A stretch of 64,000 bases of DNA from Paeniglutamicibacter psychrophenolicus (lineage in GTDB: Bacteria > Actinomycetota > Actinomycetes > Actinomycetales > Micrococcaceae): positions 62,001-126,000 of the forward strand of contig NZ_JAUSSH010000001.1 of assembly GCF_030812255.1 (NCBI RefSeq), in the 5' to 3' direction. The first letter of the stretch is position 1. The number at the start of each line of letters is the position of its first letter. This document shows, piece by piece, positions 31,299-61,231 of this stretch. Under the pieces are notes generated by a model. That model was not told where the DNA came from, searched no databases, and saw only the letters and a list, made by a program, of their open reading frames with translations. A program made the position numbers and the translations under genes.

Positions 31299-32048
31299 TC
31301 AGCGATTCGGCAACAGCTCGGACATGTCCAGCTGACCCACCGTGAGCGTCCGGCCATAGCTGAACTTCACCCGGCTGGCCACCCACGAGGTGCGTGCCAG
31401 CTCGACCAGCTCGCCCGTTTCCCTGAGCCGACTCTGCGTGATGATCTCCAGCAATTGGACGTCATGGTATGAGCCCAGAAGCTTGGCCTGACCTGCATCC
31501 GCGAAACAGATGCGAATCGAACTCGAGGCGCTGATGACGGCCGAACGAGCGTTGCGCCCGAGAACAGCCGCTCCATTGGCCGGCATCCAGGATTCCGTGA
31601 TGGCAATGGCCACGCCGTTGACCTCTTGGACGTGCACTCCGAAACCGAGCCTGTCCCCATCGTCATGTTGGATCACGGCGAGCAATTCCTCCGGCACCTC
31701 GCCGTTCCGTGAATAGGAGATCAGTCGTGAACGCGCCACGTGGCCGGTGGCAAGCAATTGTTCGCGCCAGGGGCGCAAGAGATTGACTTCGCAGCGAATC
31801 AGGTCGCTGCGCTCGGTGACAAAGCTGCCCGAGCCGCGTCGGCTGAAAAGAAGTCCGTCGGTGGCCAGGGCCTCGATTGCGCGGCGCACCGTCATCCTGC
31901 TCACCCCGTAGTGGGGCACCAACGCCGACTCCGACGGGATGCGGGCGCCAGGGGCGAATTCTCCCTGCTCGATGCGCTGGCGAAGGTCTCGCTGTACCTG
32001 CCCCCACACGGTCAACGGCGAGTCCTGTTTGACGGTGAACGCTTCCAT
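31299..32048 (-). CDS. GntR/HutC-type repressor of the P450 operon (inferred target)
   Basis: A 249-residue regulator with an N-terminal winged helix (QVQRDLRQRIEQGEFAPG, PHYGVSRMTVRRAIEALAT) and a C-terminal UTRA ligand domain (about 95-240). The ATG at 32048 is chosen because GGAAGGA lies 7 bases upstream. It is divergent from the reductase-flavodoxin-P450 operon, and the 233-base gap contains two matched 7-6-7 palindromes plus a 15-bp palindrome, so it most likely represses that operon and itself. UTRA domains bind small sugars, phosphosugars, amino acids or fatty acids. The inducer is unknown. Confidence 0.85.
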   Translation of the reverse strand: MEAFTVKQDSPLTVWGQVQRDLRQRIEQGEFAPGARIPSESALVPHYGVSRMTVRRAIEALATDGLLFSRRGSGSFVTERSDLIRCEVNLLRPWREQLLATGHVARSRLISYSRNGEVPEELLAVIQHDDGDRLGFGVHVQEVNGVAIAITESWMPANGAAVLGRNARSAVISASSSIRICFADAGQAKLLGSYHDVQLLEIITQSRLRETGELVELARTSWVASRVKFSYGRTLTVGQLDMSELLPNR

Positions 32049-32107
32049 GAACATATCCTTCCATGCCACACCGCCCCCCGAACATGCAACAGCCGATGGT
32101 GAAGCGA

Positions 32108-32122
32108 AACGGGAGTCCCGTT
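32108..32122. promoter_or_regulatory. Perfect 15-bp palindrome between GntR and P450 operon
   Basis: AACGGGA G TCCCGTT is a perfect palindrome 60 bases before the GntR start. It is a candidate third operator, unlike the two sites that follow. Confidence 0.45.
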
Positions 32123-32131
32123 GGCGCGAAG

Positions 32132-32184
32132 TTGTCTGCTTTCCCGGACAGCCTTGGCCCAAAGCTGTCCGTCTTAGCGGGCAG
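32132..32184. promoter_or_regulatory. Twin GntR operator candidates
   Basis: Site 1 (32132-32151) is TTGTCTG-N6-CGGACAG and site 2 (32165-32184) is CTGTCCG-N6-CGGGCAG. Both fit YTGTCYG-N6-CGGRCAG, and their centres are 33 bp apart, about three helical turns. Site 2 has one imperfect pair. They lie about 100-150 bases before the reductase start. Confidence 0.6.
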
Positions 32185-32281
32185 CAGGCCCTTATTTTAC
32201 CCACCAACGTGGCCTGACGCACACCTCGACCCCTAGGTTGGGTTCGAGAGCTGAAAACAAGTACCGAAGGAGCCCAGCACA

Positions 32282-33421
32282 GTGAACCAGACCCAGATCC
32301 CGCAGCCGCGGATCGCCATCGTGGGGAGCGGACCCGCGGGTTGCTACACTGCAGGCTTCCTCCGCAAGCGCTGGCCCGAGGCACCGATCGTGCTCTTTGA
32401 TCGGTTGACCACACCCTACGGCCTGGTCCGTTACGGCGTGGCCCCGGACCATCTGGGCACGAAGGGCATCGCCAAGCAATTCGACAGGCTTTTTGCCAGG
32501 GACCGCGTGGAATTCCGCGGGGGCGTGGAAATCGGCAGGGACCTGGGCCTCGACCAACTGCGCGCCGAATATGACATCGTGGTGCTGGCCACCGGCCTGT
32601 GGGCCGATCGGAGCATCGACGGGTTCCGCGATGTCGAAGGCAACGCCACCCATGCCGGAGTCCACGGCTCGGGTGAGCTGACCCGGATGATCAACGGCCA
32701 CCCGGACCGTGACTCCGAGAACCTGGTCATCGGGCGCAACACGGTAATCGTGGGCAACGGAAACGTCGCGGTGGACCTAGTGCGTCTGATGCTCACCGAT
32801 CCGGGGGTCTTGACCGGGCTCGACGTGCCCATCGATGCCATCAATGCGCTGCATGAGGGACCGGTGGCGCGGATCGATGTCGTCGGACGCTCGGCGGCCG
32901 ACGAAGCAAAGTTCGATCCCGCCATGATCCGCGAACTGGGAAAACTCCCGGATGTGCGATTCACCAGCGACGCGGTCGCCGTTCCGGGGAATGGAGACCG
33001 GGACGCCACGGCCAAGATGGCGGCCATAGTCGAACTGGTCGAACAATCGCCTGTTGCCGCAACCCGTAGCGTGAACTTCCATTTCGGCTGGACCCCCGAC
33101 ACCCTGCAGGGAAGCGAGCGGGTTGCCTCGGTAATCTTCCGCGATACGGGTGGGCAACGCGGGCAGTTGGTGCTTGAAACCGACAGCGTGTGTACAGCAG
33201 TGGGCTTCACCGAAGTCGGCGACGACGTTCTGTTGCGCAGCGCGTTGGAAGGCGAGGCCACCAACCTTGAACGCGGGATGCTGGCCGAGGGACTCTATTG
33301 CGTCGGATGGCTCCGACGCGGCCCTGTCGGCACGATCCCCGTCAACAGGGCAGACGCCAAGATGGTCGCCAACGCCATCATCAATGACGTCGAATCCAGT
33401 GTCGCCACTGTCGCTCGATAG
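32282..33421 (+). CDS. FprA-like NADPH:ferredoxin/flavodoxin reductase
   Basis: A 379-residue reductase of the adrenodoxin-reductase type. The N-terminal FAD fold reads RIAIVGSGPAGCYTAGFL, followed by the FprA signature YGLVRYGVAPDH. The NADP site is NTVIVGNGNVAVDLVRLML. The C-terminus shows the conserved WLRRGPVGTIPVNRADA. It is shorter than mycobacterial FprA (about 450). It should pass electrons from NADPH through FAD to the flavodoxin encoded next and thence to the P450. The start is GTG at 32282 behind AAGGAG. It is the first gene of the six-gene operon and lies 50 bases before the flavodoxin. Confidence 0.9.
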   Translation: MNQTQIPQPRIAIVGSGPAGCYTAGFLRKRWPEAPIVLFDRLTTPYGLVRYGVAPDHLGTKGIAKQFDRLFARDRVEFRGGVEIGRDLGLDQLRAEYDIVVLATGLWADRSIDGFRDVEGNATHAGVHGSGELTRMINGHPDRDSENLVIGRNTVIVGNGNVAVDLVRLMLTDPGVLTGLDVPIDAINALHEGPVARIDVVGRSAADEAKFDPAMIRELGKLPDVRFTSDAVAVPGNGDRDATAKMAAIVELVEQSPVAATRSVNFHFGWTPDTLQGSERVASVIFRDTGGQRGQLVLETDSVCTAVGFTEVGDDVLLRSALEGEATNLERGMLAEGLYCVGWLRRGPVGTIPVNRADAKMVANAIINDVESSVATVAR

Positions 33422-33471
33422 CCCGCCTGCACCGTCACCCTCCAAATCAACCTTTCAAGGAAAGAGCAACC

Positions 33472-33936
33472 ATGAATATCACGGTCCTGTACGGCACCGA
33501 ATCCGGCAACGCCGAGACGGTGGCCGACGACATCATCGAAGAATTCGACGGACAGTTCGAGGTCACCGGCCTCGACATGGGCGATGCAGCCGCCGTGGAC
33601 CTGGACCCCGCCTCCATCTACTTGGTCGTGTGCTCGACCCACGGCGAGGGCGGGCTGCCAGCAAGCGCCGTGCCCTTCGCCGAAATGCTGGACGAGGAAA
33701 AGCCCGACCTGTCCGGCATCCGGTACGCCATGTTCGGCCTGGGCGACAGCTCATACGAGATCTACAGCCGCGGCAGCGAGCGCATCGACGAGCGTCTGGC
33801 CGCCCTGGGTGCCGTGCGCGTCGGTGAATACGGACGGCACGACGCCGGCGACGGCTCACTGCCCAACGAACCCGCCCTTGCCTGGTCCCGCGAAACGCTT
33901 CCCGTCCTTGCCCAGCTGAGCGAGGTGGCCTCATGA
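33472..33936 (+). CDS. Flavodoxin, probable electron carrier to the P450
   Basis: A 154-residue protein made of a single flavodoxin fold. The FMN phosphate loop is YGTESGNAETVADD at residues 7-20. The FMN isoalloxazine loops are visible as CSTHGEGGLPASA and FGLGDSSYEIY. Its position between an FprA-type reductase and a P450 is the arrangement known for cindoxin in the 1,8-cineole P450cin system, where a flavodoxin replaces the usual ferredoxin. No ferredoxin is encoded nearby. AAGGAAAG precedes the ATG. Its stop overlaps the P450 start (ATGA), so stoichiometric coupled translation is likely. Confidence 0.92.
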   Translation: MNITVLYGTESGNAETVADDIIEEFDGQFEVTGLDMGDAAAVDLDPASIYLVVCSTHGEGGLPASAVPFAEMLDEEKPDLSGIRYAMFGLGDSSYEIYSRGSERIDERLAALGAVRVGEYGRHDAGDGSLPNEPALAWSRETLPVLAQLSEVAS

Positions 33937-35180
33937 CCATCACCACGGCCGCCGCCAACGCCCGGGCTATCACGGTTCCCCGCGACCTGACCGTTCACTA
34001 CGACCCGCTGTCCTACGCCGATTACGACTACCCATACGATCTGTTCAAGCGGCTGCGCGATGCAGCCCCGGTGTTCCACAACCGCGAACGCAACCTGTAT
34101 GTCGTCTCGCGCTACGCCGATGTGCGTGCCGGGCTCGGCGACCACGAACGCTTGTCCAACAAGCACGGCAATGACATTGACGGCACCCACGACTCCTACG
34201 GCGACGGCATGCTGGTTACCCTCGATCCGCCGCGGCACACGGTGCTCCGCTCAGCGATCCGCCGCACTTTCTCCGCCCGCGAGATCCTCGCCAAGGAAGA
34301 CGGATTGCGCGAATTCGCCCGGCACCTGCTGAGCGAGCTGCGCGAGGACGGCGGCGGAGACTTTGCCGCACGATTCGCCGTGCCCATGGGCATCGGCACC
34401 GGCATGACCCTGCTCGGCGCGCCGGCCGAGGACAACCCGGCATTTTCCGAACTCCTTGAACGGTCCATGGTGCGCATCGTTGGCCAACTCGGAGTCCCCG
34501 CGGATGCCGCGGCCGCGAACCGGGAAGCCGAGGAAATCATTGCCCAGCGATTCTCCGAACGACGAGCCGCCATCGACGCGGGTGCCGAAGCCACTGGCAA
34601 GGACGCCTTCACCCAAATCCTGGTGGCCGCCCACGCCGGCAAGGTCCTGCCCGGCGAGGAAGACGGACTGGCCCATCTGGTGCTCTCGGCCGGAAGCGAC
34701 GCCCCGGCGGCGCTGCTCACCAACTGCATTGCGGTGTTGGACAAGTTTCCTGCGCTGCAGGGTTTTCTCCGCGAAAATCCCTCGATGATTCCCGATTTCA
34801 TCGAGGAGACGCTGCGCTATGAAACCCCCAGCCAGAACCTGTCGCGGCAAACCACCCAGGAGATTGAAATTGCCGGAACGGTGATCCCCCAAGACTCGCG
34901 GGTGATGTTCCTACAGGCCTCGGCCAACCGTGACGAACGCGTCTACGAGGACCCTGACACCTTTGACCTGACCCGTGGATTCACCCCGGCAAACCGGATC
35001 ATGACCTTCGGCGAAGGCGCCCATGCCTGCATGGGCGCCCCCGCCGCACGGTTGGTTGCCAGGGTAGTGCTCGAAGAACTCCTGCCGGGACCTGACTTCA
35101 GGATTGTCGGGCAACCGAAGCGCTGGACAAAGCAGTTGGTGCGCGGGTTTGAGAAACTGCCCATCAAATTCATCTCATGA
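33933..35180 (+). CDS. Cytochrome P450
   Basis: A 415-residue soluble bacterial P450. The haem-thiolate motif is complete (FGEGAHACMG, Cys as ligand). The K-helix ExxR is EETLR, and the segment PANRIMTFGEG leads into the haem loop. The I helix reads LSAGSDAPAALL, so the conserved acid is kept (Asp) but the usual neighbouring Thr is Ala followed by Pro. P450cin and P450eryF also lack that Thr, which usually means substrate-assisted or altered oxygen activation. The substrate is unknown. A role in hydroxylation or O-dealkylation of a carbon source is inferred from its catabolic setting. It overlaps its neighbours by 4 bases on both sides. Confidence 0.93.
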   Translation: MTITTAAANARAITVPRDLTVHYDPLSYADYDYPYDLFKRLRDAAPVFHNRERNLYVVSRYADVRAGLGDHERLSNKHGNDIDGTHDSYGDGMLVTLDPPRHTVLRSAIRRTFSAREILAKEDGLREFARHLLSELREDGGGDFAARFAVPMGIGTGMTLLGAPAEDNPAFSELLERSMVRIVGQLGVPADAAAANREAEEIIAQRFSERRAAIDAGAEATGKDAFTQILVAAHAGKVLPGEEDGLAHLVLSAGSDAPAALLTNCIAVLDKFPALQGFLRENPSMIPDFIEETLRYETPSQNLSRQTTQEIEIAGTVIPQDSRVMFLQASANRDERVYEDPDTFDLTRGFTPANRIMTFGEGAHACMGAPAARLVARVVLEELLPGPDFRIVGQPKRWTKQLVRGFEKLPIKFIS

Positions 35181-35608
35181 GCACAGCCACGCTCATCTGG
35201 CCACTGCGCAGCAGTTTCGTCTCGTACATCGAGGCACTCCCCGACGGCATGGTGGAAGCCGGGAACGGTGCGCGGCGCCAGGGACGCAACTTCATGTTTC
35301 CCGGGCACTCCGCTTCCGGCGGTGGGTTCGGCTTCGAGGGCTGGCTGCACTTTGCAGGCCACCACGGGAGCCTGGACATCACGCTGGAATCGCTGGAAGT
35401 CCAAACCGAGGGGGCGAACGCGACACTCTGGACCGTGGTGTCCGGCTACCGGATGCGAATGGCCACGATGAGCGGCGTCCAAGTGTCCGGCGAGGTGCTT
35501 TTACATTCCGACGCGGTGAGGCTGACAGGCGACGGTGCGCACGTCCTGGGCGGGGTGTACGCCCCGGGAGCCGAACTGGAACCCCTAACCATCCGTACCG
35601 TTCGCTAA
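35177..35608 (+). CDS. Cytosolic HtaA-domain (haem-binding family) protein
   Basis: A 143-residue protein that consists of one HtaA-like domain: LIWPLRSSFVSYIEALPDG at the start, FMFPGHSASGGGFGFEGWL, HFAGHHGSLDITLESLEV, then a beta-rich end. In corynebacterial HtaA the haem is held by a Tyr with a Ser four residues before it and an assisting His. Ser13-Tyr17 and the His of HFAGHHG occupy those places here. Known HtaA proteins are secreted or wall-anchored, but this one has no signal peptide and no membrane helix. Its ATG overlaps the P450 stop. Haem delivery to the P450, or binding of the P450 product, are inferences. It could also be a non-haem relative. Confidence 0.7.
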   Translation: MSTATLIWPLRSSFVSYIEALPDGMVEAGNGARRQGRNFMFPGHSASGGGFGFEGWLHFAGHHGSLDITLESLEVQTEGANATLWTVVSGYRMRMATMSGVQVSGEVLLHSDAVRLTGDGAHVLGGVYAPGAELEPLTIRTVR

Positions 35609-35637
35609 CGCGCGCGGACAACCCCGAGAGGAAACGC

Positions 35638-36612
35638 ATGCAGTATCGCAATTTTGGCCGCACTGGCTGGAACGTCAGTGAGATTTCGTTTGGCGCTTGG
35701 CAACTGGGAGGGCAATGGGGCGCCGTCGACGACAAAAAGTCCGTCCAGGCGCTCCTGGAAGCCTACGAAAGAGGCATCAACTTCGTGGACACCGCAGAAT
35801 CCTACGGTGCGGGGCACAGTGAAACGGTGATCGGCGAGTCCCTGCGCCAATGGGGCAGGGCGAAGGTCTACGTTGCCACCAAGGTCCAACCGCTGAGGTG
35901 GCCGGACCCGGCACTGGACGATCCGCAGATGCGCGGCAGATATCCCGCGTGGTACCTGCGCGAAAGCGTTGATGAGTCGCTGAAGCGGTTGGGCGTTGAA
36001 CGCCTGGACCTGCTGCAGCTGCACTGCTGGCTGGGCTCGGGCATCAACGAGCTGGACTGGCTGGAAACCCTCAACGACTTGCGTGTGGAAGGAAAAATCG
36101 ACAAGATCGGCGTCTCGATCCGCGATTACCGCCCCGAAGAGGGTGCCAAACTGGCCGAACTTGGCCTGGTCGACTCCATCCAGGTCATCTTCAACATGTT
36201 CGAACAGCGCCCCATCGAGGACTTGTTTCCATCGGCAGCCAAGACCAATACGGCCATCATCGACCGAGTCGCGTTCGACTCCGGATCGCTCTCCGGCTCG
36301 TGGACCCCTGAAACCTACGCAGGTTGGGAACCGGGCTCGCAGCAGCGCGAGATGTTCCGCGGCGAGAGGTTTGCCGAAACGCTGCGCCGGGTCGAGGAGC
36401 TGAAGAAGATTGTTTCCCCGTACTACGAGTCGTTGGCCGAAGCCGCCATGCGTTACGTGCTGGCCTCGCCGGAGGTGTCCACAGTGATCGCCGGCATGAG
36501 CAGCTCGCGCAACATCGCCCGCAACGTCAGCTACTCCGACGGCCAGCCGTTCCCCGGGGACCTCCGCACGGCACTGGCCGAACACGGCTGGATCAGGAAC
36601 TACTACGCATGA
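35638..36612 (+). CDS. Aldo/keto reductase
   Basis: A 324-residue TIM-barrel oxidoreductase. The family signatures are clear: GRTGWNVSEISFGAW, NFVDTAESYGAGHSE with the catalytic Asp and Tyr, a Lys in YVATKVQPL and the His of LLQLHCWLG. The NADP-binding C-terminus includes the segment STVIAGMSSSRNIARN. It would reduce, or in catabolism oxidise, a carbonyl or sugar-like substrate formed by the P450. GAGAGGA precedes the ATG. It lies 29 bases after the HtaA-domain gene and overlaps the creatininase-like gene by 4. Confidence 0.9.
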   Translation: MQYRNFGRTGWNVSEISFGAWQLGGQWGAVDDKKSVQALLEAYERGINFVDTAESYGAGHSETVIGESLRQWGRAKVYVATKVQPLRWPDPALDDPQMRGRYPAWYLRESVDESLKRLGVERLDLLQLHCWLGSGINELDWLETLNDLRVEGKIDKIGVSIRDYRPEEGAKLAELGLVDSIQVIFNMFEQRPIEDLFPSAAKTNTAIIDRVAFDSGSLSGSWTPETYAGWEPGSQQREMFRGERFAETLRRVEELKKIVSPYYESLAEAAMRYVLASPEVSTVIAGMSSSRNIARNVSYSDGQPFPGDLRTALAEHGWIRNYYA

Positions 36613-37379
36613 GCCATCCCAAAACGGTGCAGGTCGAACTGCTCAGCCCTGCCGAGCTGGATGCGTGCCTCGCCGCGGCAGCTGTCGCCTACCTGCCGCT
36701 GGGCACCCTCGAATTCCATGGACCGCATCTGCCCATCGGCTTGGATGCGCTCACCGCCCACGGCGTGTGTCTTGCCGCTGCCCGGTTGGGCGGCGGCATC
36801 GTGCTCCCGACCGTCTACCAGGGGTTCGGAGGCGGGCATGGTCACTACCCGTGGACCATCATGATGGAGAACGGCGAAGGCATCGCCGCACACCTGACGG
36901 CGACCCTTTCCCGATTGGAGGATTTCGGGGTGCGCACCGCCGTGATCTTCTCCGGTCACTTTGCCGACGAACAGCTCCAAGTGATCGACGACGTTGCGGC
37001 GGCATTCAACCAACACGCCGGCGGATCGCTGCGGGTGCTCGCCTCGGCCGTCAACAGGTGCCCAACAGCATCGTTGCAGGCCGACCACGCAGGTGAGTTC
37101 GAGACGACCTTGCTGGGGGCAATAGCCCCAGGGCTGGTGCACCTGGACCGGTTGCCCCCTGTCGACACATATCCGGCGGCCGACCCCGGCGGAGATTCCC
37201 AAGGCGTCCACCGCCATGACAAAAGCCATCCGCTGTGGGGAGTCTTCGGGCCCGACCCGCGACTGGCGGACCTCTCGCGCTCGCCGGAGCTGCTCGCAGA
37301 TCTCGCTGCTTGGTTGGTCCGGTCGGTCGATGACCAAAGCCAAGGCACTGCAGGCATCGGAGTCCAGGCGGGGGAATGA
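36609..37379 (+). CDS. Creatininase-family hydrolase
   Basis: A 256-residue creatininase-superfamily protein. Metal-site motifs are LGTLEFHGPHLPIGLDA (Glu, His, Asp) and, further on, SGHFADEQ in place of the usual NGHGGN, then DHAGEFETT with the last Glu. The family includes creatinine amidohydrolase, an F420/riboflavin-pathway deformylase, MftE, and as I recall the diketo-inositol hydrolase IolN. So a ring-opening hydrolase for a P450/AKR product next to an inositol island is plausible but unproven. Last gene of the operon, ATGA-coupled to the aldo/keto reductase. Confidence 0.8.
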   Translation: MSHPKTVQVELLSPAELDACLAAAAVAYLPLGTLEFHGPHLPIGLDALTAHGVCLAAARLGGGIVLPTVYQGFGGGHGHYPWTIMMENGEGIAAHLTATLSRLEDFGVRTAVIFSGHFADEQLQVIDDVAAAFNQHAGGSLRVLASAVNRCPTASLQADHAGEFETTLLGAIAPGLVHLDRLPPVDTYPAADPGGDSQGVHRHDKSHPLWGVFGPDPRLADLSRSPELLADLAAWLVRSVDDQSQGTAGIGVQAGE

Positions 37380-37537: not shown

Positions 37538-37590
37538 GAACAGCAGGTTCCCATCGGAGCAAACATTGCTCCGGTGGGAACCTGCTGTTC
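37538..37590 (+). terminator. Very long perfect hairpin after the P450 operon
   Basis: Arms of 25 bp (37538-37562 with 37566-37590, one G-T pair) close on a 3-base loop. It starts GAACAGCAGG and ends CCTGCTGTTC. No T-run follows. It lies 159 bases after the last operon gene and probably stops transcription or protects the 3' end of the message. Confidence 0.65.
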
Positions 37591-37943
37591 GCGTTAAGGC
37601 GTGTTGAACCTGGCCGAAGGTGCAGCAGATGCCAGCGTCCTGGGCGCTGGGTTTCTTCCGGCAGGGTTACAAAGAAACGATGGAAAGCAATCGTCCGGGC
37701 GTCCCCCTGCGGGGTAGACGCACCGTTTCAGGGCGGTGTACGCAGGTGGGCTTTTGCGCTGGAGTGGTTGTGCCGATCCGATGGATTCGGGATCCGAAGT
37801 TCATACAAAAATGACAGTGTCCTTGGGGTGGTTTCCTCCGCACACCCATGCGGTGCGGAGAAAGTCGGTGCAAGTACCGGGTTCGACAGCTTGCGGTCGG
37901 TCTCGTTCCGCAGGACGAAATGCGGTGTCGGTGCAGCAATGCA
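37591..37943. other. Intergenic stretch with no supported gene
   Basis: About 350 bases between the long hairpin and the MFS terminator. Frames here are short and lack coding bias. The only structure seen is a small hairpin near 37835-37862 (CTCCGCAC with GTGCGGAG). I see no RNA family, promoter or element that I can name. Confidence 0.5.
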
Positions 37944-38010: not shown

Positions 38011-39444
38011 CTAGCGAACCCCGTACTTGGTTTGGAATTCCATTTCGAGTTCCTCCAATGAACGCCCCCTGGTTTCCGGGACGGAGGTGGCGATGAAGGT
38101 GATTGCGACCAGCCCGATGGCCGCGAAGATCCAAAAGGTGCCGAAGCCGACGGCTTCGATCAGCGAGGGGAAGACCAGCGAGACGACGGCGTTGGTCAAC
38201 CAGAGAACCAGGACCGTGGCCCCGATCATCCGGCCACGGAACTTCAACGGGAAAATCTCCGCGATCATGAGCCAGGCCAGTGCGCCGATGGTGCCGGCCA
38301 TGAAAGCGATGAAGGCCAAGATGCCGATCAATAGCAGCCATGGCCGCAGCGGGTTGCCGTCCTCCATGAAAATGCCGACCGAGCCCACGAAGGCGTGGGC
38401 CAGGGTGGTTCCCGAGAGTCCGATGAGCAACAGCGTGCGGCGATTGAACTTGTTGATGATGGCCAGCGCAACCAACGTCGCCCCGACATTGACCACGCCA
38501 TTGAGCACGTTGAAGCCCAATGCAGCATTGCGGGTGAAGCCGGCCTGTTCAAGGACCTGGGTTCCGTAATACATCATGGAGTTGATGCCGGTGAGTTGTT
38601 GGAAGGCAGCCAATCCCATGCCGATGAACAGCAGGCGGCGCAACCACGGCTGGGAAAGGATCTCGGACCAGCCAACGGACTGCTCCTTCTTTTCCAGGAG
38701 CGTGAGTTCCTGGATCTCGTTGATCTCCGCCACTGCCCGTTCGTCCGAGCGGATGGTGCGCAGCGCCGCGAGGGCCTCGGCATAGCGTCCCTTGGAGGCG
38801 AGCCAGCGAGGGCTTTCGGGCATGCGCAGCATGCCGAAGAAGAGGACCAACGCCGGCAGGACGGCAATGGTAAGCATGTAGCGCCAGACCTCACCGTGTC
38901 CGCCCCAGAGATTGCCGATAATGGCGTTGATCGCAAAGGCGAGGAACTGGCCGGAAACAATCATGAGTTCATTAAGCGAGACCAACGAGCCTCGGCGCTC
39001 GAAGGGAGCGACTTCGGCCAGGTATACCGGGACGGTGACCGATGCCCCGCCCACGGCCAGGCCCAGGATGAAGCGGAAGACCAACAGGGATTCGTAGGTC
39101 GGTGCAAGCACGCAGCCCAGTGCACCGACAAAGAACAAGACTGCAAGGCCGATGATCAGCTTGCGTCGGCCCAATCCATCGGAGATTCGACCTCCGAAGA
39201 ATGCGCCAAGTGCGGCGCCGGCCAGCAGGATGAAGGTGATGAGCCCTTCTTGGATCGCATTGATCTGGAAGTAGTCGACCATGAATGAAAGTGCGCCGTT
39301 GAGCACCCCGGTGTCGTAGCCGAAAAGGAGGCCGCCGAACGTTGCGATGACCGCAACCTGGCCAATGCGCTTGTTGTAGGCGCCCTGGCCCAGCGGTGGC
39401 AGTGATGTCTTGCCGGCGCTCGGGGCCACTGGTTGTTTGGACAT
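38011..39444 (-). CDS. MFS sugar porter (polyol/inositol type)
   Basis: A 477-residue twelve-helix sugar porter. Signatures are [19 protein letters not shown] (helix 1), DGLGRRKLI (loop 2-3), [38 protein letters not shown] (helix 7) and PETRGRSLEELE. The pattern is shared with inositol and polyol proton symporters. The ATG at 39444 has AGGGAG upstream and is preferred to the in-frame ATG at 39468. It is divergent from a LacI regulator, which probably controls it, and it sits at the edge of the inositol island, so a cyclitol or sugar alcohol is the likely cargo. Confidence 0.88.
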   Translation of the reverse strand: MSKQPVAPSAGKTSLPPLGQGAYNKRIGQVAVIATFGGLLFGYDTGVLNGALSFMVDYFQINAIQEGLITFILLAGAALGAFFGGRISDGLGRRKLIIGLAVLFFVGALGCVLAPTYESLLVFRFILGLAVGGASVTVPVYLAEVAPFERRGSLVSLNELMIVSGQFLAFAINAIIGNLWGGHGEVWRYMLTIAVLPALVLFFGMLRMPESPRWLASKGRYAEALAALRTIRSDERAVAEINEIQELTLLEKKEQSVGWSEILSQPWLRRLLFIGMGLAAFQQLTGINSMMYYGTQVLEQAGFTRNAALGFNVLNGVVNVGATLVALAIINKFNRRTLLLIGLSGTTLAHAFVGSVGIFMEDGNPLRPWLLLIGILAFIAFMAGTIGALAWLMIAEIFPLKFRGRMIGATVLVLWLTNAVVSLVFPSLIEAVGFGTFWIFAAIGLVAITFIATSVPETRGRSLEELEMEFQTKYGVR

Positions 39445-39676
39445 GTCTCGCTCCCTTGAGAGATTCATTCCGTCACCCCACGGAATGGCGGAGGAGGTTT
39501 GATGAAAAGATCTTTGGCCTAATGTCAGTACATACTAGCACGAGCCAGTGAGCTGTGTCACAGGTATTTTGATACAATTTTCTACCGTTGATCAACATGG
39601 CGAATAACCCGTTGGTGACCTGAAGCAACGAGGCATTCGAGGAGCGACAGATGCCAGGCAGGTAGGGTGGTTCACG

Positions 39677-40729
39677 ATGAACAACGAGGGTGCGGGCGCA
39701 CGCAACGCCAGAAATTCGGGGTCCGACCGAATCGGCCGCAGGGCAACCATGTCCGATGTGGCCGCCCGGGTTGGCGTTTCACGGCAATTGGTCGGTCTGG
39801 TCTTCCGCAACGAGGCAGGGGTCGGGGTCGAAACGCGTAATCGCATCCTTGCCGCAGCGCGCCAACTGGGGTACAGCCCGAATACCGCAGCCCAATCCCT
39901 TCGCGGATCCTCCACCCGGTCCATAGGGGTCATTTTCAATCCCTATGAGCTCACTCCGCTGGATATCCTGAGTCGGATTTATGAACACGCAGCGACGGCC
40001 GGCTATCGCGTCCTGGTGAGCACCACAACGGAGACCCGGACCGAGCAGGTTGCCATCGACGAACTGGTTGGATACCGGTGCGAGGCGTTGATTCTCATTG
40101 CGCCGAAGGCTGGATTTGTGGAATTGCGACGGGCTATCGGCCCCACGCCGGTTGTCGTGGTGGGCCGAGGCATGCCCGGTTCCGACTTTGACGTTGTTCG
40201 GTCACAGGGTGCCGACGGCATGGACGGCATGGTCCGTCATCTGGCGAGCTTGGGGCACCGGAGCATTTGCTACGTGCATTGCCTGGACGTGCTCGATTCG
40301 GACGTGCGCCTGGGCGGTTACCGCAGGGCGATGGCCGGACTCGGGTTGGAGCAACGGGTCATCGAATTGTCGGGTGATTTCACCGAGGAAGCCGGGGCGC
40401 GGGCTGCCGAGTTGCTTATGAGCGGCGGGGACCTGCCGGGCGCGGTCATGTGCAACAACGACCTTGCGGCATCGGGACTGAGCCACCGCCTCCTGCAGTT
40501 CGGGCTCCACTGTCCTCGGGACATTTCGATCACCGGCTACGATGACAACCGCATTGCGGGACTGTCCTATCTCGATCTGACGACGGTGTGCCAGGATCCG
40601 AATGAGATGGCCCGGGCTGCGGTCGAGGCGGCCGTGGCACGGGCGGCAGGTTCCGCAGGACTCCCTCGGGAGATCTTCACCGGTGCCCGGCTGGTCATCC
40701 GCTCGAGCACGGCCGCCCCTTCCGTTTGA
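39677..40729 (+). CDS. LacI-family regulator
   Basis: A 350-residue LacI/GalR regulator. The helix-turn-helix is ATMSDVAARVGVSRQLVGLVF near residues 23-45 (note the 20-residue limit splits it), with a hinge (NTAAQSLRGSSTRSIGVIF) and a periplasmic-binding-protein-type ligand domain (GAVMCNNDLAASGL; ISITGYDDNRIAGLSYLDLT). An extra N-terminal 20 residues precede the DNA-binding helices. It is divergent from the sugar porter and convergent with the SDR gene. Likely ligand: a cyclitol or sugar. Confidence 0.88.
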   Translation: MNNEGAGARNARNSGSDRIGRRATMSDVAARVGVSRQLVGLVFRNEAGVGVETRNRILAAARQLGYSPNTAAQSLRGSSTRSIGVIFNPYELTPLDILSRIYEHAATAGYRVLVSTTTETRTEQVAIDELVGYRCEALILIAPKAGFVELRRAIGPTPVVVVGRGMPGSDFDVVRSQGADGMDGMVRHLASLGHRSICYVHCLDVLDSDVRLGGYRRAMAGLGLEQRVIELSGDFTEEAGARAAELLMSGGDLPGAVMCNNDLAASGLSHRLLQFGLHCPRDISITGYDDNRIAGLSYLDLTTVCQDPNEMARAAVEAAVARAAGSAGLPREIFTGARLVIRSSTAAPSV

Positions 40730-40760: not shown

Positions 40761-41540
40761 CTACAGTGCCCGCGGCGTGCCGGAGGAAGCTGTCGTACCA
40801 CCGTCCACCGGAAGGATGATGCCGGTGATGTAGCCGGCGTCAGGGGAGGCGAGGAATAGCACGGATCGGGCGATGTCCTCCGGTTCCCCCGCCCGCTCCA
40901 GGGCGACGCGATCCATCAAGCGTGCCGAGAACTCCGGATTCTCCAGCCGCTCGACGGTGAGCCTGGAAGCGGTGAATGCCGGAGCGACGGCATTCACGCG
41001 GACACCGTGGGCACCCATGTCCAGTGCCAGTGACTGCACCATCGCATTGAGGGCGCCCTTGGTGGCGTTGTAGGCAAACTGTTTCCAGTCGCCTCGGATG
41101 CCGGCAGTGGAGGAAATGGCAACGATGTTTCCTCGGGTTAGTTTCAGCGCAGGGACCACCGCCCGGGCAAGGGTGATGAAGGCATCGAGGTTCACGCTGC
41201 GCATCCGTTCCCAAGCCGCGTCCTCGAAGTCCTCGATGATGCTTGGCTCACTGGTGCCGGCATTGGATACCACGACATCAATGCGGCCAAAGTGCTCCAT
41301 GATGCCGGCCACGGCGGACTCCACCGCAGATCGTGACGTCACGTCGGCGACAAGGACCAAGGCGTCTTCTGGGGGAAATCCCGCAATGGTCTCCTCAAGC
41401 GGCCCCGCGGACCGCCCAAGCACCGCGACGCTGGCACCCTGCTCCAGGAAGCCCCGGGCGATGCTGCGCCCGATGCCGGAACCTGCGCCGGTGACCAGCA
41501 CGACCTGGCCCTCGTAGGGGTAGCGCGCCCAAGCGATCAA
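40761..41540 (-). CDS. Short-chain dehydrogenase/reductase
   Basis: A 259-residue SDR. The NAD(P) motif is VVLVTGAGSGIGRSIARGF, then the NAG motif (VVSNAGTSEPS), the catalytic Ser (AISSTAGIRG), Tyr-x3-Lys (YNATK), and IILPVDGGTTAS near the C-terminus. The start is TTG at 41540, which overlaps the stop of the upstream isomerase gene (TTGA). That arrangement and the normal N-terminus decide the start. It is co-transcribed with the isomerase and would oxidise or reduce a polyol or cyclitol. Confidence 0.85.
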   Translation of the reverse strand: MIAWARYPYEGQVVLVTGAGSGIGRSIARGFLEQGASVAVLGRSAGPLEETIAGFPPEDALVLVADVTSRSAVESAVAGIMEHFGRIDVVVSNAGTSEPSIIEDFEDAAWERMRSVNLDAFITLARAVVPALKLTRGNIVAISSTAGIRGDWKQFAYNATKGALNAMVQSLALDMGAHGVRVNAVAPAFTASRLTVERLENPEFSARLMDRVALERAGEPEDIARSVLFLASPDAGYITGIILPVDGGTTASSGTPRAL

Positions 41541-42544
41541 CGGACCGAAACCTCGAGGGCGGCGTTGGCTTCGCGCAGCACGGCCGAGGCCACTTCCAGG
41601 CCCTCGATGCGGCCCAGGGACACGTCCTCGTGCTCGATGTTGACCCACATCTCGGGGTCGACCTCGTGCAGGGCGCGTAGGAACTCGGTCCAGTACGCGG
41701 TGTCATGTCCCTTGCCCAGGGCCACGAAGTCCCAGGCTGCATCCTTGGGCCACTCGTTGGCCCATTCGTCCCCGCCCAGGTTCGTGCGCGGCTCGGAGGG
41801 GTCCAGCTTGCGGAAGCGGTTGTCCAGCACCCCGTAGATCGCGGCGGACGGGTTCACCCGCACGTCCTTGGCGGCGGCGTGGAAGACCAGCGGTCCCAAG
41901 TCGCGGATGACGGCCACCGGATCCATCTGCTGCCAGAACAGGTGCGAGGCATCCAGTTCCACACCCACGTTGGTGGCGCCGGTGCGTTCGACCAGCTCGC
42001 GAATGCCTGCCGGGTTGAAGACGACGTTTTGCGGGTGGAGTTCAAGGGCAACCTTCACCCCGTGGTCGACGGCGAGCTTGTCGATGTCCTTCCAGAAATC
42101 GGCGGCCACGCCCATTTGGTAGTCAAGGACATCGAGCGATGCGGAGTTCCAGGCGTTGACGATCCAGTTCGGCGTGGTGGCTCCGGGTTCCCCGCCGGGC
42201 AGGCCGGACATCGTGACCACGCGGTCCTGGCCCAGGCGTTCGGCCAGGCGGATCGAGCGGCGGATGTCCTCGGCGTGGGCATCGCCGATCAGGGGATTGG
42301 GGTGCAGCGGGTTGCCGTTGCAGTTGAGCCCGGCAATCGAGACGCCGGTGCCTTCGAAGATCCCCAGGTATTCGTCGCGGGCGACGTCGCTGGCCAGGAT
42401 GTCGTCATAGGTCGGGATGTGCACGGGGGGAAGGAATCCGCCGGAGTTGATCTCAATGCCGGTCAATCCGGCCTTGGCGATGGCAACAAGCGCCTCGGGC
42501 AGTGGGCGGTCGTGCAGAATGGCGTTGTAGACACCGAGTTTCAT
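41537..42544 (-). CDS. TIM-barrel sugar isomerase/epimerase
   Basis: A 335-residue AP-endonuclease-2-type TIM barrel (xylose isomerase-like). Metal-binding residues are visible in strand ends: LELHPQNVVF (Glu, His), GVELDASHLFW (Asp, His) and VFHAAAKDVRV (His), with WVNIEHEDVSL (Glu) late. Such proteins isomerise or epimerise free sugars or keto-inositols (IolE, IolH, IolO relatives). It is the first gene of a two-gene unit with the SDR. A perfect LacI-type palindrome lies 93 bases before its ATG, so LacI control is likely. Confidence 0.82.
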   Translation of the reverse strand: MKLGVYNAILHDRPLPEALVAIAKAGLTGIEINSGGFLPPVHIPTYDDILASDVARDEYLGIFEGTGVSIAGLNCNGNPLHPNPLIGDAHAEDIRRSIRLAERLGQDRVVTMSGLPGGEPGATTPNWIVNAWNSASLDVLDYQMGVAADFWKDIDKLAVDHGVKVALELHPQNVVFNPAGIRELVERTGATNVGVELDASHLFWQQMDPVAVIRDLGPLVFHAAAKDVRVNPSAAIYGVLDNRFRKLDPSEPRTNLGGDEWANEWPKDAAWDFVALGKGHDTAYWTEFLRALHEVDPEMWVNIEHEDVSLGRIEGLEVASAVLREANAALEVSVR

Positions 42545-42636
42545 GGCTTTCCTTGCTTTCTTGGATGGAGAAGGGCATTCCACGGTTCGTGGCGAGGTCG
42601 GCCTGTGACACTGGACGTGGGGGCCGCACCGAGTTC

Positions 42637-43472: not shown

Positions 43473-44471
43473 GTGACCCACGACGTACTCACCATCGGAC
43501 GCATCAGCGTCGACGTCTACCCGAACGACATCGGTGTTCCCCTTGGCGAGGTTAACAGCTTCGGCAAGTATCTTGGTGGTTCGCCAACCAATGTGGCGGT
43601 GGCCGCAGCCCGCCATGGGCGCCGCACCGCGGTCATCACCCGGATCGGCGATGACGAGTTCGGCAGCTACCTGGAACGCGAGCTGGACAAGTTCCAGGTC
43701 GACCGCAAGCATGTCAGCCGCGTCCCCGGGCTCCAGACACCGGTCACCTTTTGCGCAATCATGCCCCCGGAGGACTTCCCGCTGTACTTCTACGGACGCT
43801 TCCCCACCGCACCGGACTGGAAGATCGCCACCGACGAGCTGGACGTCGATGCCATCCGCAGCTCGCGGATCTTCTGGTCCACCGTCACCGGGCTGAGCCA
43901 GGAGCCCAGCGCCAGCGCCCACATCGCTGCGCACGAGATCAGGTCCCGCGACACGCTCGCGGCAAACCAGTTCACCATCCTGGACCTGGACTACCGCCCC
44001 ATGTTCTGGGAATCCGAGGAAGCGGCCCGCGCCCAGGTGGCCAAGGTCCTTCCCCACGTCACCGTCGCCATCGGCAACGACAAGGAATGCGCCGTGGCCG
44101 TCGGGGCGGGAACCCCCGACGAGCAGGCCGACCGGCTGCTGGCCGCCGGCGTGGAAATCGCCGTGGTCAAGCTCGGACCCGAGGGCGTCATGGCCAAGAC
44201 CCGCACCGAACGGGTGGTCTCCGCCCCGGTGCCGGTGCAGACCGTCAACGGGCTCGGTGCCGGGGACTCCTTCGGCGGCGCCTTCTGCCACGGACTGCTC
44301 TCCGGATGGCCGCTTGAGCAAGTCCTGGACTACGCCAATGCCGCCGGTGCCATCGTCGCCTCCCGTCTGGCCTGCTCCGACGACATGCCCACCCCATCCG
44401 AGGTCAACGCGCTGTTGGCCGAACGCGGCCGCACCGTACCGGGCCCAGCAACCATCGAGGTCTCCCCATGA
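43473..44471 (+). CDS. iolC: 5-dehydro-2-deoxygluconokinase
   Basis: A 332-residue PfkB kinase that phosphorylates 2-deoxy-5-keto-D-gluconate in inositol catabolism. N-terminal VLTIGRISVDVYPNDIGVPL and GGSPTNVAVAAARHGRR are typical of IolC. The PfkB signature with the catalytic Asp is VNGLGAGDSFGGAFCHGLL. The start is GTG behind AAAGGA. Its end overlaps the aldolase-like gene by 4 bases. First gene of the core iol operon. Confidence 0.94.
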   Translation: MTHDVLTIGRISVDVYPNDIGVPLGEVNSFGKYLGGSPTNVAVAAARHGRRTAVITRIGDDEFGSYLERELDKFQVDRKHVSRVPGLQTPVTFCAIMPPEDFPLYFYGRFPTAPDWKIATDELDVDAIRSSRIFWSTVTGLSQEPSASAHIAAHEIRSRDTLAANQFTILDLDYRPMFWESEEAARAQVAKVLPHVTVAIGNDKECAVAVGAGTPDEQADRLLAAGVEIAVVKLGPEGVMAKTRTERVVSAPVPVQTVNGLGAGDSFGGAFCHGLLSGWPLEQVLDYANAAGAIVASRLACSDDMPTPSEVNALLAERGRTVPGPATIEVSP

Positions 44472-45406: not shown

Positions 45407-47353
45407 ATGGCTACACGCAGAATGACGGTCGCCCAGGCCGTCGTGGAATTCCTGGGCAGGCAGTACACCGTGGACAACATCGGTTCGGAAACCTACCGCG
45501 AACGCCTGATACCGGGCATGTTCGGGATCTTCGGCCACGGCAACGTGGCGGGCGTCGGCCAGGCCCTGAAGCAGTTCCAGGCCAAGGACCCGGCCCTGAT
45601 GCCCTATTACCAGGGGCGCAACGAGCAGGCCCAGTCGCACCAGGCCGTCGGCTACGCCCGGCACACCCGGCGCCGGGCCACCTACGCGGTGTCCACCTCC
45701 ATCGGCCCGGGATCCTCGAACCTGCTCACCGGCGCCGCCCTGGCCACCGCCAACCGGCTTCCGGTGCTGCTGCTGCCGTCTGACACCTTCGCCACCCGCG
45801 CGGCCGACCCGGTGTTGCAGCAGCTCGAGCACTCCCACGGCTACGACATCACCGTCAACGACGCCTTCCGCCCGCTGTCCAAGTACTTCGACCGGGTCAA
45901 CCGCCCCGAGCAGCTGTTCTCCGCGATGATGAACGGGCTGCGCGTGCTCACCGACCCCGTCGAAACCGGCGCGGTGACCATCTCGCTGCCGCAGGACGTG
46001 CAGGCCGAGGTGTTCGAGGTGCCCGCCGAATTCCTGGCCGAACGCGACTGGAGGATCCGCCGCCCCGAGCCCGAGGCCGAGGACATCGCCCGCGCCGCAG
46101 CGCAGATCAAGGCCGCCAAGTGCCCGCTGATCATCGCCGGCGGCGGGGTGCTGTACTCCTTCGCGCAGGACGCGCTGCTGGAACTGGCGCAGAAAACCGG
46201 CATCCCGGTGGCCTACACGCAGGCCGGGGTCGGCACCATCGCCTGGGACTCGCCGTACTCGCTGGGCGCCATCGGTTCCACCGGCACCACCGCAGCCAAC
46301 GCGCTGGCCGCCGAGGCGGACCTGGTCATCGGCATCGGCACCCGCTACGAGGACTTCACCACCGCCTCACGCACCGCGTTCCAGAACCCGGAACTGCGGT
46401 TCATCAACATCAACGTCGCGCCGCTTGACGCCTACAAGCACGGCACCGCGCTGCCCATCGTCGCCGATGCCCGCAAGGCCCTGGTGGCGCTGAACACCGC
46501 CCTGGGCGGCTACCGGGTCGGGGCAGACCTCGAAGCAGCCATCGCCTCGCAGAAGCAGCGCTGGGACGCAACGGTCGATGCCGCCTTCGCCACCCGGCAC
46601 AACCCGCTTCCGGCGCAGAACGAGATCATCGGCGCGGTGCACGGGGCCATGGACGAACGCGACGTGGTCATCTGCGCCGCCGGATCGCTGCCCGGGGACC
46701 TGCACAAGATGTGGCGGATCAAGGACGCCCACGGCTACCACGTGGAATACGCGTTCTCCTGCATGGGCTACGAGATCGCCGGCGGCCTGGGCGTCAAGCG
46801 CGCGGTCATCGACGAGGCCGCCCGCGGCGCGGCGGCAAACCGCGACGTCGTGGTCATGGTCGGGGACGGGTCCTACCTGATGATGCACACCGAGCTGGTC
46901 ACCGCCGTGGCCGAGGGCATCAAGCTCATCACGGTGCTGATCCAGAACCACGGCTACGCCTCCATCGGCTCGCTCTCCGAATCCCTGGGTTCCCAGCGCT
47001 TCGGCACCCAATACCGCCAGCTGGATGCAGAAACGCATTCCTTCGACGCCGGTGCCAAGCTGCCCATCGACCTGGCCACCAATGCCGAGTCCCTGGGCGT
47101 GAAGGTCATCAGGATCGAACCGGGCACCGACGCCATCGACAAGCTCGCCGCGGCCGTCGCCACGGCCAAGGCGGCACCCGAGGGCAGCGGCCCGATCCTC
47201 ATCCACGTCGAATCCGACCCGCTGCTCGATGCCCCGGACTCCGAGTCCTGGTGGGACGTGCCGGTCTCCGGCGAATCCGACCTCGAATCGACCCGGGCCG
47301 CCTACGCGACCTACACCGGGCACAAGGCGCGCCAGCGCAACTTCCTGGGCTAG
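45407..47353 (+). CDS. iolD: 3D-(3,5/4)-trihydroxycyclohexane-1,2-dione hydrolase
   Basis: A 648-residue thiamine-diphosphate enzyme that opens the diketone ring to 5-deoxyglucuronate. The N-terminal TPP domain carries PGMFGIFGHGNVAGVGQAL, and the pyrimidine-domain Glu region is YQGRNEQAQSHQAVGYAR. The central domain is LIIAGGGVLYSFAQDAL, and the C-terminal TPP/Mg motif is VVMVGDGSYLMMHTEL with a following NHGYASIGSLSES. Full length for IolD. It follows the aldolase gene by 15 bases with AGGAG upstream. Confidence 0.95.
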   Translation: MATRRMTVAQAVVEFLGRQYTVDNIGSETYRERLIPGMFGIFGHGNVAGVGQALKQFQAKDPALMPYYQGRNEQAQSHQAVGYARHTRRRATYAVSTSIGPGSSNLLTGAALATANRLPVLLLPSDTFATRAADPVLQQLEHSHGYDITVNDAFRPLSKYFDRVNRPEQLFSAMMNGLRVLTDPVETGAVTISLPQDVQAEVFEVPAEFLAERDWRIRRPEPEAEDIARAAAQIKAAKCPLIIAGGGVLYSFAQDALLELAQKTGIPVAYTQAGVGTIAWDSPYSLGAIGSTGTTAANALAAEADLVIGIGTRYEDFTTASRTAFQNPELRFININVAPLDAYKHGTALPIVADARKALVALNTALGGYRVGADLEAAIASQKQRWDATVDAAFATRHNPLPAQNEIIGAVHGAMDERDVVICAAGSLPGDLHKMWRIKDAHGYHVEYAFSCMGYEIAGGLGVKRAVIDEAARGAAANRDVVVMVGDGSYLMMHTELVTAVAEGIKLITVLIQNHGYASIGSLSESLGSQRFGTQYRQLDAETHSFDAGAKLPIDLATNAESLGVKVIRIEPGTDAIDKLAAAVATAKAAPEGSGPILIHVESDPLLDAPDSESWWDVPVSGESDLESTRAAYATYTGHKARQRNFLG

Positions 47354-47395: not shown

Positions 47396-48916
47396 ATGAG
47401 CACCACCACCCAGGCCACCGCGGTGACCACCATCAACCACTTCATCAACGGGACCGAAACCGCCGGCGAGGGCGGCAACACCCAGCCGGTGTACAACCCC
47501 GCCACCGGCGAGGTCACCGCCAACCTGGCCCTGGCCTCCGCCGCCGACCTGGCCGCAACGGTCGCCGCGGCCCGCACCGCGGCCGATTCCTGGGGGGACA
47601 CCTCCATCGCCAAGCGCACCGCGGTGCTCTTCAAGTTCCGTGAACTGCTGGTGGCCAACACCGACGCGCTGGCCCGCATCGTGACGTCCGAGCACGGCAA
47701 GGTCCTCTCCGACGCGGCGGGCGAGATCGGCCGCGGCATCGAGGTCGTGGAGTACGCCTGCGGCATCTCGCAGTCGCTCAAGGGCGAATTCTCCGACCAG
47801 GTCTCCACCGGCATCGACGTGTTCTCCTTCCGCCAGCCCCTGGGCGTGGTCGCGGGCATCACCCCGTTCAACTTCCCGGTCATGGTGCCGCTGTGGATGG
47901 CCCCGGTCGCCATCGCCGCCGGCAACGCCTTCATCCTCAAGCCCTCCGAGCGCGACCCCTCCGCGGCCGTCTTCATGGCCCGGCTCTTCAAGGAAGCCGG
48001 CTTGCCCGACGGCGTGTTCCAGGTGCTGCACGGCGGAAAGGAAACCGTCGACGGGCTGCTGAACCACCCGGACATCGACGGGATCTCCTTCGTCGGCTCC
48101 ACCCCGATCGCCAAGTACGTCCACGAAACGGCAACCGCCAACGGCAAGCGCGTCCAGGCCCTGGGCGGGGCAAAGAACCACGCGGTCATCATGCCGGACG
48201 CCGACATGGAACTGGCCGCCGACCACCTCACCGCCGCAGCCTTCGGCTCGGCCGGACAGCGCTGCATGGCCATCTCCGTGGCCGTGGCCGTGGGTTCGGC
48301 CGCCGACGTGCTGGTGGACAAGCTGGTGGCCCGCGCCAACGACATCAAGGTCTCCCACGGCCTTGACGCCGAGGCGGACATGGGCCCGGTCATCACCCCG
48401 GCCTCCAAGACCCGCATCGAAAAGATCGTCGGCGAGGCCGCCGAAGCCGGGGCCGCGGTCATCGTCGATGGCCGCGACCTGGTGGTCGCCGACCACGAGA
48501 ACGGCTTCTTCGTCGGCCCGACCATCATCGACAAGGTCAAGCGCGAAATGACCGCCTACACCGAGGAGGTCTTCGGACCCGTCCTGGCAGTCATCCGCGT
48601 AGACACCCTGGCCGAGGCCATCGAGGTCGTCAACGCCAACCCCTACGGCAACGGAACGGCGATCTTTACCTCCAACGGGGCCGACGCCCGCACCTACACC
48701 CGCAAGGTCCACGTCGGCATGGTGGGCGTCAACATCCCGCTGCCGGTGCCGGTGGCCTGGCACTCCTTCGGCGGCTGGAAGAACTCGCTCTTTGGCGAGC
48801 ACCACATCTACGGCCCGGACGGGGTGCGCTTCTACACCCGCGGCAAGGCCGTCACCCAGCGCTGGCCCGAACACAAGGAAGACTCGAACGCCTCCTTCGC
48901 GTTCCCGTCCAACTAG
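47396..48916 (+). CDS. iolA: CoA-acylating (methyl)malonate-semialdehyde dehydrogenase
   Basis: A 506-residue aldehyde dehydrogenase that converts malonate semialdehyde to acetyl-CoA, the last step of the pathway (also called MmsA). The segment GVVAGITPFNFPVMVPLWM is diagnostic, the catalytic Cys290 is in GSAGQRCMAISVAV, and the C-terminus includes GGWKNSLFGEHHIYGPDGV. AGAAGGAAAG precedes the ATG. It lies 42 bases after iolD. An intra-operon hairpin follows it. Confidence 0.95.
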   Translation: MSTTTQATAVTTINHFINGTETAGEGGNTQPVYNPATGEVTANLALASAADLAATVAAARTAADSWGDTSIAKRTAVLFKFRELLVANTDALARIVTSEHGKVLSDAAGEIGRGIEVVEYACGISQSLKGEFSDQVSTGIDVFSFRQPLGVVAGITPFNFPVMVPLWMAPVAIAAGNAFILKPSERDPSAAVFMARLFKEAGLPDGVFQVLHGGKETVDGLLNHPDIDGISFVGSTPIAKYVHETATANGKRVQALGGAKNHAVIMPDADMELAADHLTAAAFGSAGQRCMAISVAVAVGSAADVLVDKLVARANDIKVSHGLDAEADMGPVITPASKTRIEKIVGEAAEAGAAVIVDGRDLVVADHENGFFVGPTIIDKVKREMTAYTEEVFGPVLAVIRVDTLAEAIEVVNANPYGNGTAIFTSNGADARTYTRKVHVGMVGVNIPLPVPVAWHSFGGWKNSLFGEHHIYGPDGVRFYTRGKAVTQRWPEHKEDSNASFAFPSN

Positions 48917-61229: not shown

Positions 61230-61231
61230 GC

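Follow-up and report, generated by a model that had tools for sequence, protein, structure and literature searches.

Within a 64,000-nt stretch of the Paeniglutamicibacter psychrophenolicus genome (contig NZ_JAUSSH010000001.1, positions 62,001 to 126,000 of the forward strand), hereafter the window, we read a cassette of seven genes around a cytochrome P450, which probably lets its carriers use a modified, perhaps methylated, cyclitol. Six of the genes are co-directional on the forward strand and encode, in this order, an FprA-like reductase, a flavodoxin, the P450, an HtaA-domain protein, an aldo/keto reductase (AKR), and a creatininase-family hydrolase, with the seventh, a GntR-type regulator gene, facing the opposite way (Table 1). 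This six-gene unit had been proposed from the letters of the stretch alone (the original prediction), and both gene reading and Pfam matches proved it real. Four of the five junctions were indeed ATGA overlaps or gaps under 30 bases, the successive distances being +50, −4 (ATGA), −4 (ATGA), +29, and −4 (ATGA) bases. The divergent repressor stood as a GntR protein, but not the UTRA domain ascribed to it, which scored under the Pfam cut-off (18.9 vs 23.8 bits).

A pattern-seeded scan of genome contigs with this P450 retrieved five loci encoding proteins 64–76% identical to it, in Subtercola lobariae (L050), a Subtercola metagenome-assembled genome (L051), Arthrobacter sp. MI7-26 (L052), Microbacterium yannicii (L053, genome G443), and Gryllotalpicola ginsengisoli (L054), all with the full cassette and the last two with a fused open frame. 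Two more, L067 (genome G757; P450 72% identical; full cassette) and L072 (genome G938; 62% identical; P450 without the rest of the cassette), came from 396 genomes of the order and 345 of the family, in which two and three genomes, respectively, matched at 1e-70; both counts include the window's own genome and the latter also one locus found earlier, and the order, family, and class sets searched overlap. With the window counted, seven of the eight P450 loci carry all seven genes in order, across at least five genera, and the cassette proteins range from about 41% (HtaA) up to 83% (AKR, the best conserved) identity to those of the window. This recurrence of seven genes in identical order in six further genomes, as a co-occurrence search revealed, places the gene set beyond chance. 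That the genes form one unit is likewise supported by the order kept in 7/7 cassette loci and, at two of these, by a single open frame that takes in reductase, flavodoxin, and P450. A plasmid source of the cassette was rejected, all 1159 matching plasmid records being <60% identical (the 30 listed, ≤32.7%), and base composition was discarded as evidence of transfer: the G+C content of the cassette is 63.9% vs 70.4% to its left and 66.0% in the inositol (iol) island, but at the six other loci such differences amount to ≤1.6 points.

Table 1. Features of the P450 cassette and its surroundings in the window (positions are those of the 64,000-nt stretch; MFS, major facilitator superfamily; SDR, short-chain dehydrogenase/reductase)
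Feature	Position	Strand	Evidence
GntR/HutC-type repressor gene	31299..32048	-	Pfam GntR 6.8e-21; orthologue 56-67% in 6/6 other cassette loci
Divergent intergenic control region	32049..32281	.	Weak half-site evidence; operator putative
FprA / adrenodoxin-reductase-type NADPH reductase	32282..33421	+	Pfam Pyr_redox_2 3.1e-9; PDB 1cjc, 1lqt
Flavodoxin	33472..33936	+	Pfam Flavodoxin_1 1.1e-27; best PDB cindoxin 4oxx
Cytochrome P450, separate lineage	33933..35180	+	Pfam p450 4.7e-23; Cys366, E292, R295, Ala257
Single HtaA haem-binding-type domain protein	35177..35608	+	Pfam HtaA 2.1e-20; predicted fold
IolS-like AKR	35638..36612	+	Pfam Aldo_ket_red 1.1e-51; PDB IolS 1pyf
Creatininase-family metal hydrolase	36609..37379	+	Pfam Creatininase 9.1e-33; invariant E34, H36, D45, H116
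Hairpin, 25-nt arms, 3' of last cassette gene; likely unit end	37538..37590	.	
Sugar-porter MFS transporter, probable importer	38011..39468	-	TIGR00879 367 bits, cut-off 238
LacI-type regulator	39677..40729	+	51% identical relative adjoins P450 in L072
SDR dehydrogenase	40761..41585	-	63% relative in Subtercola iol block (L069)
Xylose-isomerase-like TIM barrel	41537..42568	-	Relatives in four other loci
iolC	43473..44471	+	TIGR04382 362 bits, cut-off 300
iolD	45407..47353	+	TIGR04377 815 bits, cut-off 715
CoA-acylating methylmalonate-semialdehyde dehydrogenase (MmsA, iolA type)	47396..48916	+	TIGR01722 710 bits, cut-off 449
iolE-like gene	49068..50000	+	TIGR04379 137 bits, under cut-off 290
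iolG	59247..60260	-	TIGR04380 399 bits, cut-off 355

In a tree with 48 control P450s, the eight proteins formed one clade (support 1.0) on a long stem, and the best-scoring match outside this lineage among 394 class genomes was only 38% identical. No orthologue was found in 14 other genomes of the genus, where matches spanning most of the protein were at most 31% identical and a single stretch of 187 residues reached 36%. A PDB profile search with the P450 alignment yielded no match at E 1e-60, and no XplA-named chain figured among the 60 listed of 395 P450 matches in PDB; a structure model from the eight aligned rows attained a mean predicted local distance difference test (pLDDT) score of 56. 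Both the haem-thiolate signature FxxGxHxCxG (F359, G360, G362, H364, C366, and G368) and the ExxR motif (E292/R295) are nevertheless invariant in all eight. At the I helix, every orthologue carries Asp-Ala (Ala257 in the window) where 47 of the 48 controls have threonine, and the acid-alcohol (D/E-T) pair, which is no strict requirement of the P450 family, is hence missing. P450eryF and P450cin, the latter with Asn at this position, also lack the threonine and rely instead on a hydroxyl of the substrate or on a different residue; by analogy, a polyol substrate would fit its absence here.

In PDB, the reductase matched adrenodoxin reductase (1cjc, 6.6e-41) and FprA (1lqt, 9.8e-38), and the best match of the flavodoxin was cindoxin (4oxx, 3.9e-26). 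The cassette flavodoxin is, moreover, the sole full-length PF00258 match in the genome, the second one covering 56 positions at 25.9 bits. In L053 and L054, reductase, flavodoxin, and P450 are joined by linkers in one open frame devoid of internal stops, 1025 and 989 codons long, respectively, if counted from the first start codon (the actual start may be further in), and 91% identical over 989. This fusion argues more strongly than anything else for the three proteins acting as one chain. Together with the gene order kept in 7/7 loci, it links an FAD reductase to an FMN flavodoxin as in P450cin-like chains and supports, at the level of sequence, a dedicated flavodoxin chain serving this P450. 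At L072 (14821-18170), the genes that come next after the P450 encode a protein with NHL repeats and a reductase that combines NAD-binding and 2Fe-2S domains; that such a reductase stands where the cassette loci have the flavodoxin chain implies that the lineage is able to swap its redox partner.

The haem-binding-family protein announced by the original prediction was borne out both by its Pfam domain (PF04213, 74.4 bits, cut-off 24) and by its predicted fold, the model (pLDDT 88.8) matching the C-terminal domain of HtaA (6jsa) with a template-modelling (TM) score of 0.80 and a Foldseek value of 2.1e-10. The Tyr and His of HtaA domains are haem ligand and supporting residue, and of their counterparts Tyr17 is kept in 7/7 sequences and His62 in 6/7, with Tyr in L053. 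The secretion or surface location typical of the family was not recovered: the domain begins at residue 4 and inspection by eye disclosed no leader, so the protein should be cytosolic. There, it may load haem into the P450.

As for the two remaining enzymes, the AKR has the domain and the invariant tetrad (D51, Y56, K82, H129) of an IolS-like protein, and Bacillus subtilis IolS (1pyf) was its only PDB match below 1e-30. The hydrolase falls well within the creatininase family (PF02633, 114 bits, cut-off 31), with E34, H36, D45, and H116 invariant in seven sequences, as numbered from a sequence one residue short. However, it fails the curated models for creatininase itself (TIGR04448, 69.2 vs 235 bits) and IolN (NF041098, 23.3 vs 245 bits) and scores under the MftE cut-off. 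Its solved relatives are creatinine amidohydrolases, and the later Glu metal ligand of the bacterial creatininase has no conserved counterpart in the alignment. The "ring-opening-type hydrolase" first proposed thus kept its family, whereas "ring-opening" is a guess, given a score so far under the IolN cut-off.

The inositol island described beside the operon is likewise there, with iolC, iolD, MmsA, and one iolG above curated cut-offs, although the iolE-like and a second iolG-like gene lie under theirs. We used tblastn to compare the surroundings of all eight P450s with those of 20 control P450s from 20 genomes, picked from the genus and class matches, counting as inositol-type the genes for IolC, IolD, IolE, IolG, IolH, and the TIM barrel of the window, and as carbohydrate importers those of the sugar-porter MFS or Peripla_BP_4/BPD_transp_2 ATP-binding cassette (ABC) types. 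Importers were evident within 8 kb of the P450 at 8/8 loci vs 1/20 controls (a match of 22% identity), and inositol-type genes within 10 kb at 6/8 vs 0/20. A true iolD occurs in all eight P450 genomes, as compared with 158 of 388 class genomes; in three of the eight, the window's and the two Subtercola ones, 10-13 kb separate it from the P450. Each Subtercola genome has an iol block downstream of the cassette, with an ABC importer as well as a GntR gene in between, and the iolE/iolG/iolH-like block at L053 is 76-84% identical to it. The TIM barrel of the window has relatives beside the cassette in L052 (79%), in the two Subtercola iol blocks (81%), and in L053 (41%), and its sugar porter in L053 (44%) and L067 (46%); ABC binding proteins beside L050, L052, and L054 match the rhizopine-binding model at 89-169 bits, under its cut-off of 420. 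The proposed link to cyclitol metabolism thereby holds outside the window, while the substrate is one that we infer.

Together, these data make a dedicated P450 module directed at a carbohydrate-like compound or cyclitol likely, as judged from gene content and context, and its best reading is that a modified cyclitol is oxidatively O-demethylated or else hydroxylated. More specifically, we infer from the sequence, with a probability of roughly 0.42, that the P450 O-demethylates a methyl-cyclitol whose product feeds the iol pathway. The cassette would then form an aerobic module, complete in itself and transferable, that acts on a small polar polyol. The likeliest substrate is an O-methylated cyclitol (pinitol, ononitol, sequoyitol, bornesitol, or a rhizopine-like methyl-inosamine), which would enter via the neighbouring sugar importer. 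Electrons would flow from NADPH through the FprA-type FAD protein and the FMN of flavodoxin to the P450, which would hydroxylate the O-CH3 group, the hemiacetal yielding formaldehyde and free cyclitol; proton delivery, with no I-helix threonine, may come from a substrate hydroxyl. On the product, the AKR could turn alcohol into ketone or back; the hydrolase might open or trim a resulting ketone, lactone, or amide before the carbon passes into the iol pathway. The HtaA protein would hold or deliver haem for the P450, and the GntR protein would repress the unit until substrate or an intermediate is present.

Several observations weigh against O-demethylation of a methyl-cyclitol. The neighbourhood queries were derived from target loci and hence favour them; without own-locus queries, importers persisted at 8/8 loci but inositol-type genes at 5/8, the window itself dropping out. 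The control set is also small and the loci partly related, the two Subtercola loci not being independent. Neither L067 nor L072 has an inositol-type gene within 10 kb. In G757, more than 400 kb separate iolD from the P450, and in four other genomes the two are on different contigs. The hydrolase is no IolN by its model score, and tblastn recovered no counterpart of the FprA, flavodoxin, HtaA, AKR, or hydrolase gene at L072, so the P450 can occur without the steps of the AKR, hydrolase, and HtaA protein, and its reaction does not imply them. Polarity of the P450 substrate recognition sites (SRS) gave a mixed outcome: SRS1 scored −0.97 vs −0.45 in controls (standard deviation 0.41), with 14/48 controls as low, SRS5 was more polar than controls (5/48), SRS6 was undistinguished (23/40), and the I helix and F-G stretch were less polar than controls; pocket polarity was consequently left out of the argument. 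Finally, no formaldehyde-specific annotated gene was noticed in the cassette and the flanks scanned, leaving aside a zinc alcohol dehydrogenase (12025-13083) and with no dedicated search made. The more ambitious scheme, in which an undescribed P450 lineage starts aerobic O-methylated cyclitol breakdown with its own FprA-flavodoxin supply, fused in two genera, and a cytosolic HtaA protein as the first dedicated P450 haem-loading partner, is less likely than not as a whole.

An unlikely but serious alternative is that the P450 oxidizes a sugar or sugar acid bearing a methyl group or another modification, the iol setting being just one of several carbohydrate neighbourhoods. The importers are indeed of general carbohydrate types, L067 has only a sugar porter nearby, L072 has a mannitol-dehydrogenase gene ~11 kb off, and the closest chemical precedent seen, in the accessible text of PMC10033563, is a P450 acting on 6-O-methyl-D-galactose. 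This option sits poorly, however, with the inositol-type genes near six of the eight loci (five without own-locus queries) and none of the 20 controls, and with the presence of iolD in 8/8 genomes. It is quite unlikely that the P450 instead hydroxylates a C-H bond of a deoxy-cyclitol (quercitol, viburnitol) or oxidizes a cyclitol carbon to inositol or inosose, with no methyl group involved. The same context evidence would apply, the formaldehyde observation would agree, and a substrate hydroxyl could stand in for the missing threonine, as in P450eryF; yet dehydrogenases could begin such a breakdown without an oxygenase, which renders the selective need less clear. Improbable, in turn, is a nitrogen-containing cyclitol or amide (a rhizopine or an aminocyclitol antibiotic fragment) whose amide or amidine the hydrolase cuts: the rhizopine-type binding proteins and the creatinine amidohydrolase relatives would suit it, but the former score under the equivalog cut-off and Pfam assigns no cassette gene to the transaminases or deaminases. 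We give equally little credit to a terpenoid, alkaloid, or aromatic detoxification or catabolism module (P450cin- or papaverine-like) that neighbours inositol genes by chance since, although the known flavodoxin-fed P450s (P450cin and the CYP1232 pair) act on such compounds, the latter as described in part of a review (PMC9687028), importers and iol genes turn up at locus after locus and the P450 lineage is distant. Calystegine catabolism was dropped as the origin of the cassette, no title on bacterial calystegine breakdown having been found in the literature searched.

In the control region, a CTTGTCT/AGACAAG half-site lies between the GntR and reductase genes in five of the seven cassette loci, as a GTTGTCT variant in the window, and L067 has none. 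A shared operator proving a common cassette/iol regulon was rejected, as the half-site is not consistent upstream of iol genes; one AGACAAG at 43449, just 5' of iolC, could be explained by chance. No sigma-70-like promoter was found by scan, and Rfam at gathering thresholds returned only a tRNA in the window. Strong hairpins occur between the cassette and the MFS gene at 37949-37980 and 37780-38000, the latter 221-nt stretch folding better than shuffles (z −2.66) with no Rfam match at those thresholds.

Elsewhere in the island, a PhyH-type Fe(II)/2-oxoglutarate dioxygenase gene (56524-57717, reverse strand) lies beside iolG-like, TIM-barrel, and LacI genes, and could encode a second oxygenase acting on a modified cyclitol. 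A TIM-barrel and Gfo/Idh/MocA pair at the right end (60354-62386, reverse strand) suggests that several modified inositols are used. G443, G757, and G938 each carry two iolD copies above cut-off.

No title in the open-licence literature searched, whose silence counts for little, describes the cassette of seven genes or its distribution, the open frame that joins FprA and flavodoxin to a P450 of this lineage, or a leaderless HtaA partner, in line with the original claim that no pathway with this gene set had been described. The flavodoxin-P450 electron chain is itself of a known kind. P450cin acts on cineole, shares with the cassette P450 the missing I-helix threonine, and to our knowledge has no AKR, creatininase, or HtaA partner. 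In the portion of a review that deals with it, the Citrobacter enzyme is fed by an FAD reductase through an FMN flavodoxin (PMC9687028), the same relay as that proposed here, where cindoxin is the flavodoxin's best solved relative; unlike it, the cassette has a reductase of the adrenodoxin-reductase/FprA type and a carbohydrate rather than a cineole setting. P450cin is not the only such case, as had been assumed: according to the same portion, CYP1232A24 and CYP1232F1 of Arthrobacter papaverine metabolism (Klenk 2019) also cluster with a flavodoxin and a flavodoxin reductase (PMC9687028). By description, these are likewise actinobacterial P450s in such a cluster, with a different substrate.

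A native FprA-flavodoxin-P450 open frame, a rare layout, would give a ready self-sufficient biocatalyst, possibly for very polar substrates. XplA/XplB, which acts on RDX, combines a flavodoxin-P450 with an adrenodoxin-type reductase, and an XplB-XplA fusion was reportedly observed in Microbacterium by Andeer in 2009. Compared by description, the cassette resembles it in all three respects and differs in that the XplA substrate is a xenobiotic; we know of no operon partners of the cassette kind for XplA/XplB. Corynebacterial HtaA/HtaB share with the cassette protein the fold, the conserved Tyr, and in 6/7 sequences the His mutated in 6jsc, although the cassette protein is single-domain, has no visible leader, and sits in a P450 operon, which makes a haem route to cytosolic P450s testable via removal of one gene.

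With regard to inositol chemistry, Thermotoga-type IolN (3-dehydro-scyllo-inosose hydrolase) has the creatininase family and inositol context in common with the cassette hydrolase, unlike it in model score. Rhizopine catabolism, in the text available to us, combines the inositol pathway with a ferredoxin oxygenase complex (Bahar 1998), and a partial account of nodule rhizopine synthesis includes ononitol and 3-O-methyl-scyllo-inosose (PMC6668481). The mocDEF and iol genes thus similarly tie a dedicated oxygenase with its electron chain to inositol breakdown, with methyl-inosamine as the moc compound, but as described there mocDEF encodes a ferredoxin oxygenase complex and no P450 with flavodoxin. 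For methylated inositols, no bacterial enzyme removing the methyl ether was found in the open-licence literature searched. These compounds are common plant solutes, and the 6-O-methyl-D-galactose demethylase of porphyran-degrading marine bacteria is CYP236A. As far as the accessible text goes, the latter P450 converts its substrate to galactose and formaldehyde (PMC10033563) and so removes a carbohydrate methyl ether for use, as we propose for the cassette, but it does so with ferredoxin and ferredoxin reductase, in Flavobacteriia, and with no inositol link. If our reading is true, a P450 demethylating methylated inositols would fill this gap and parallel the algal-sugar demethylase.

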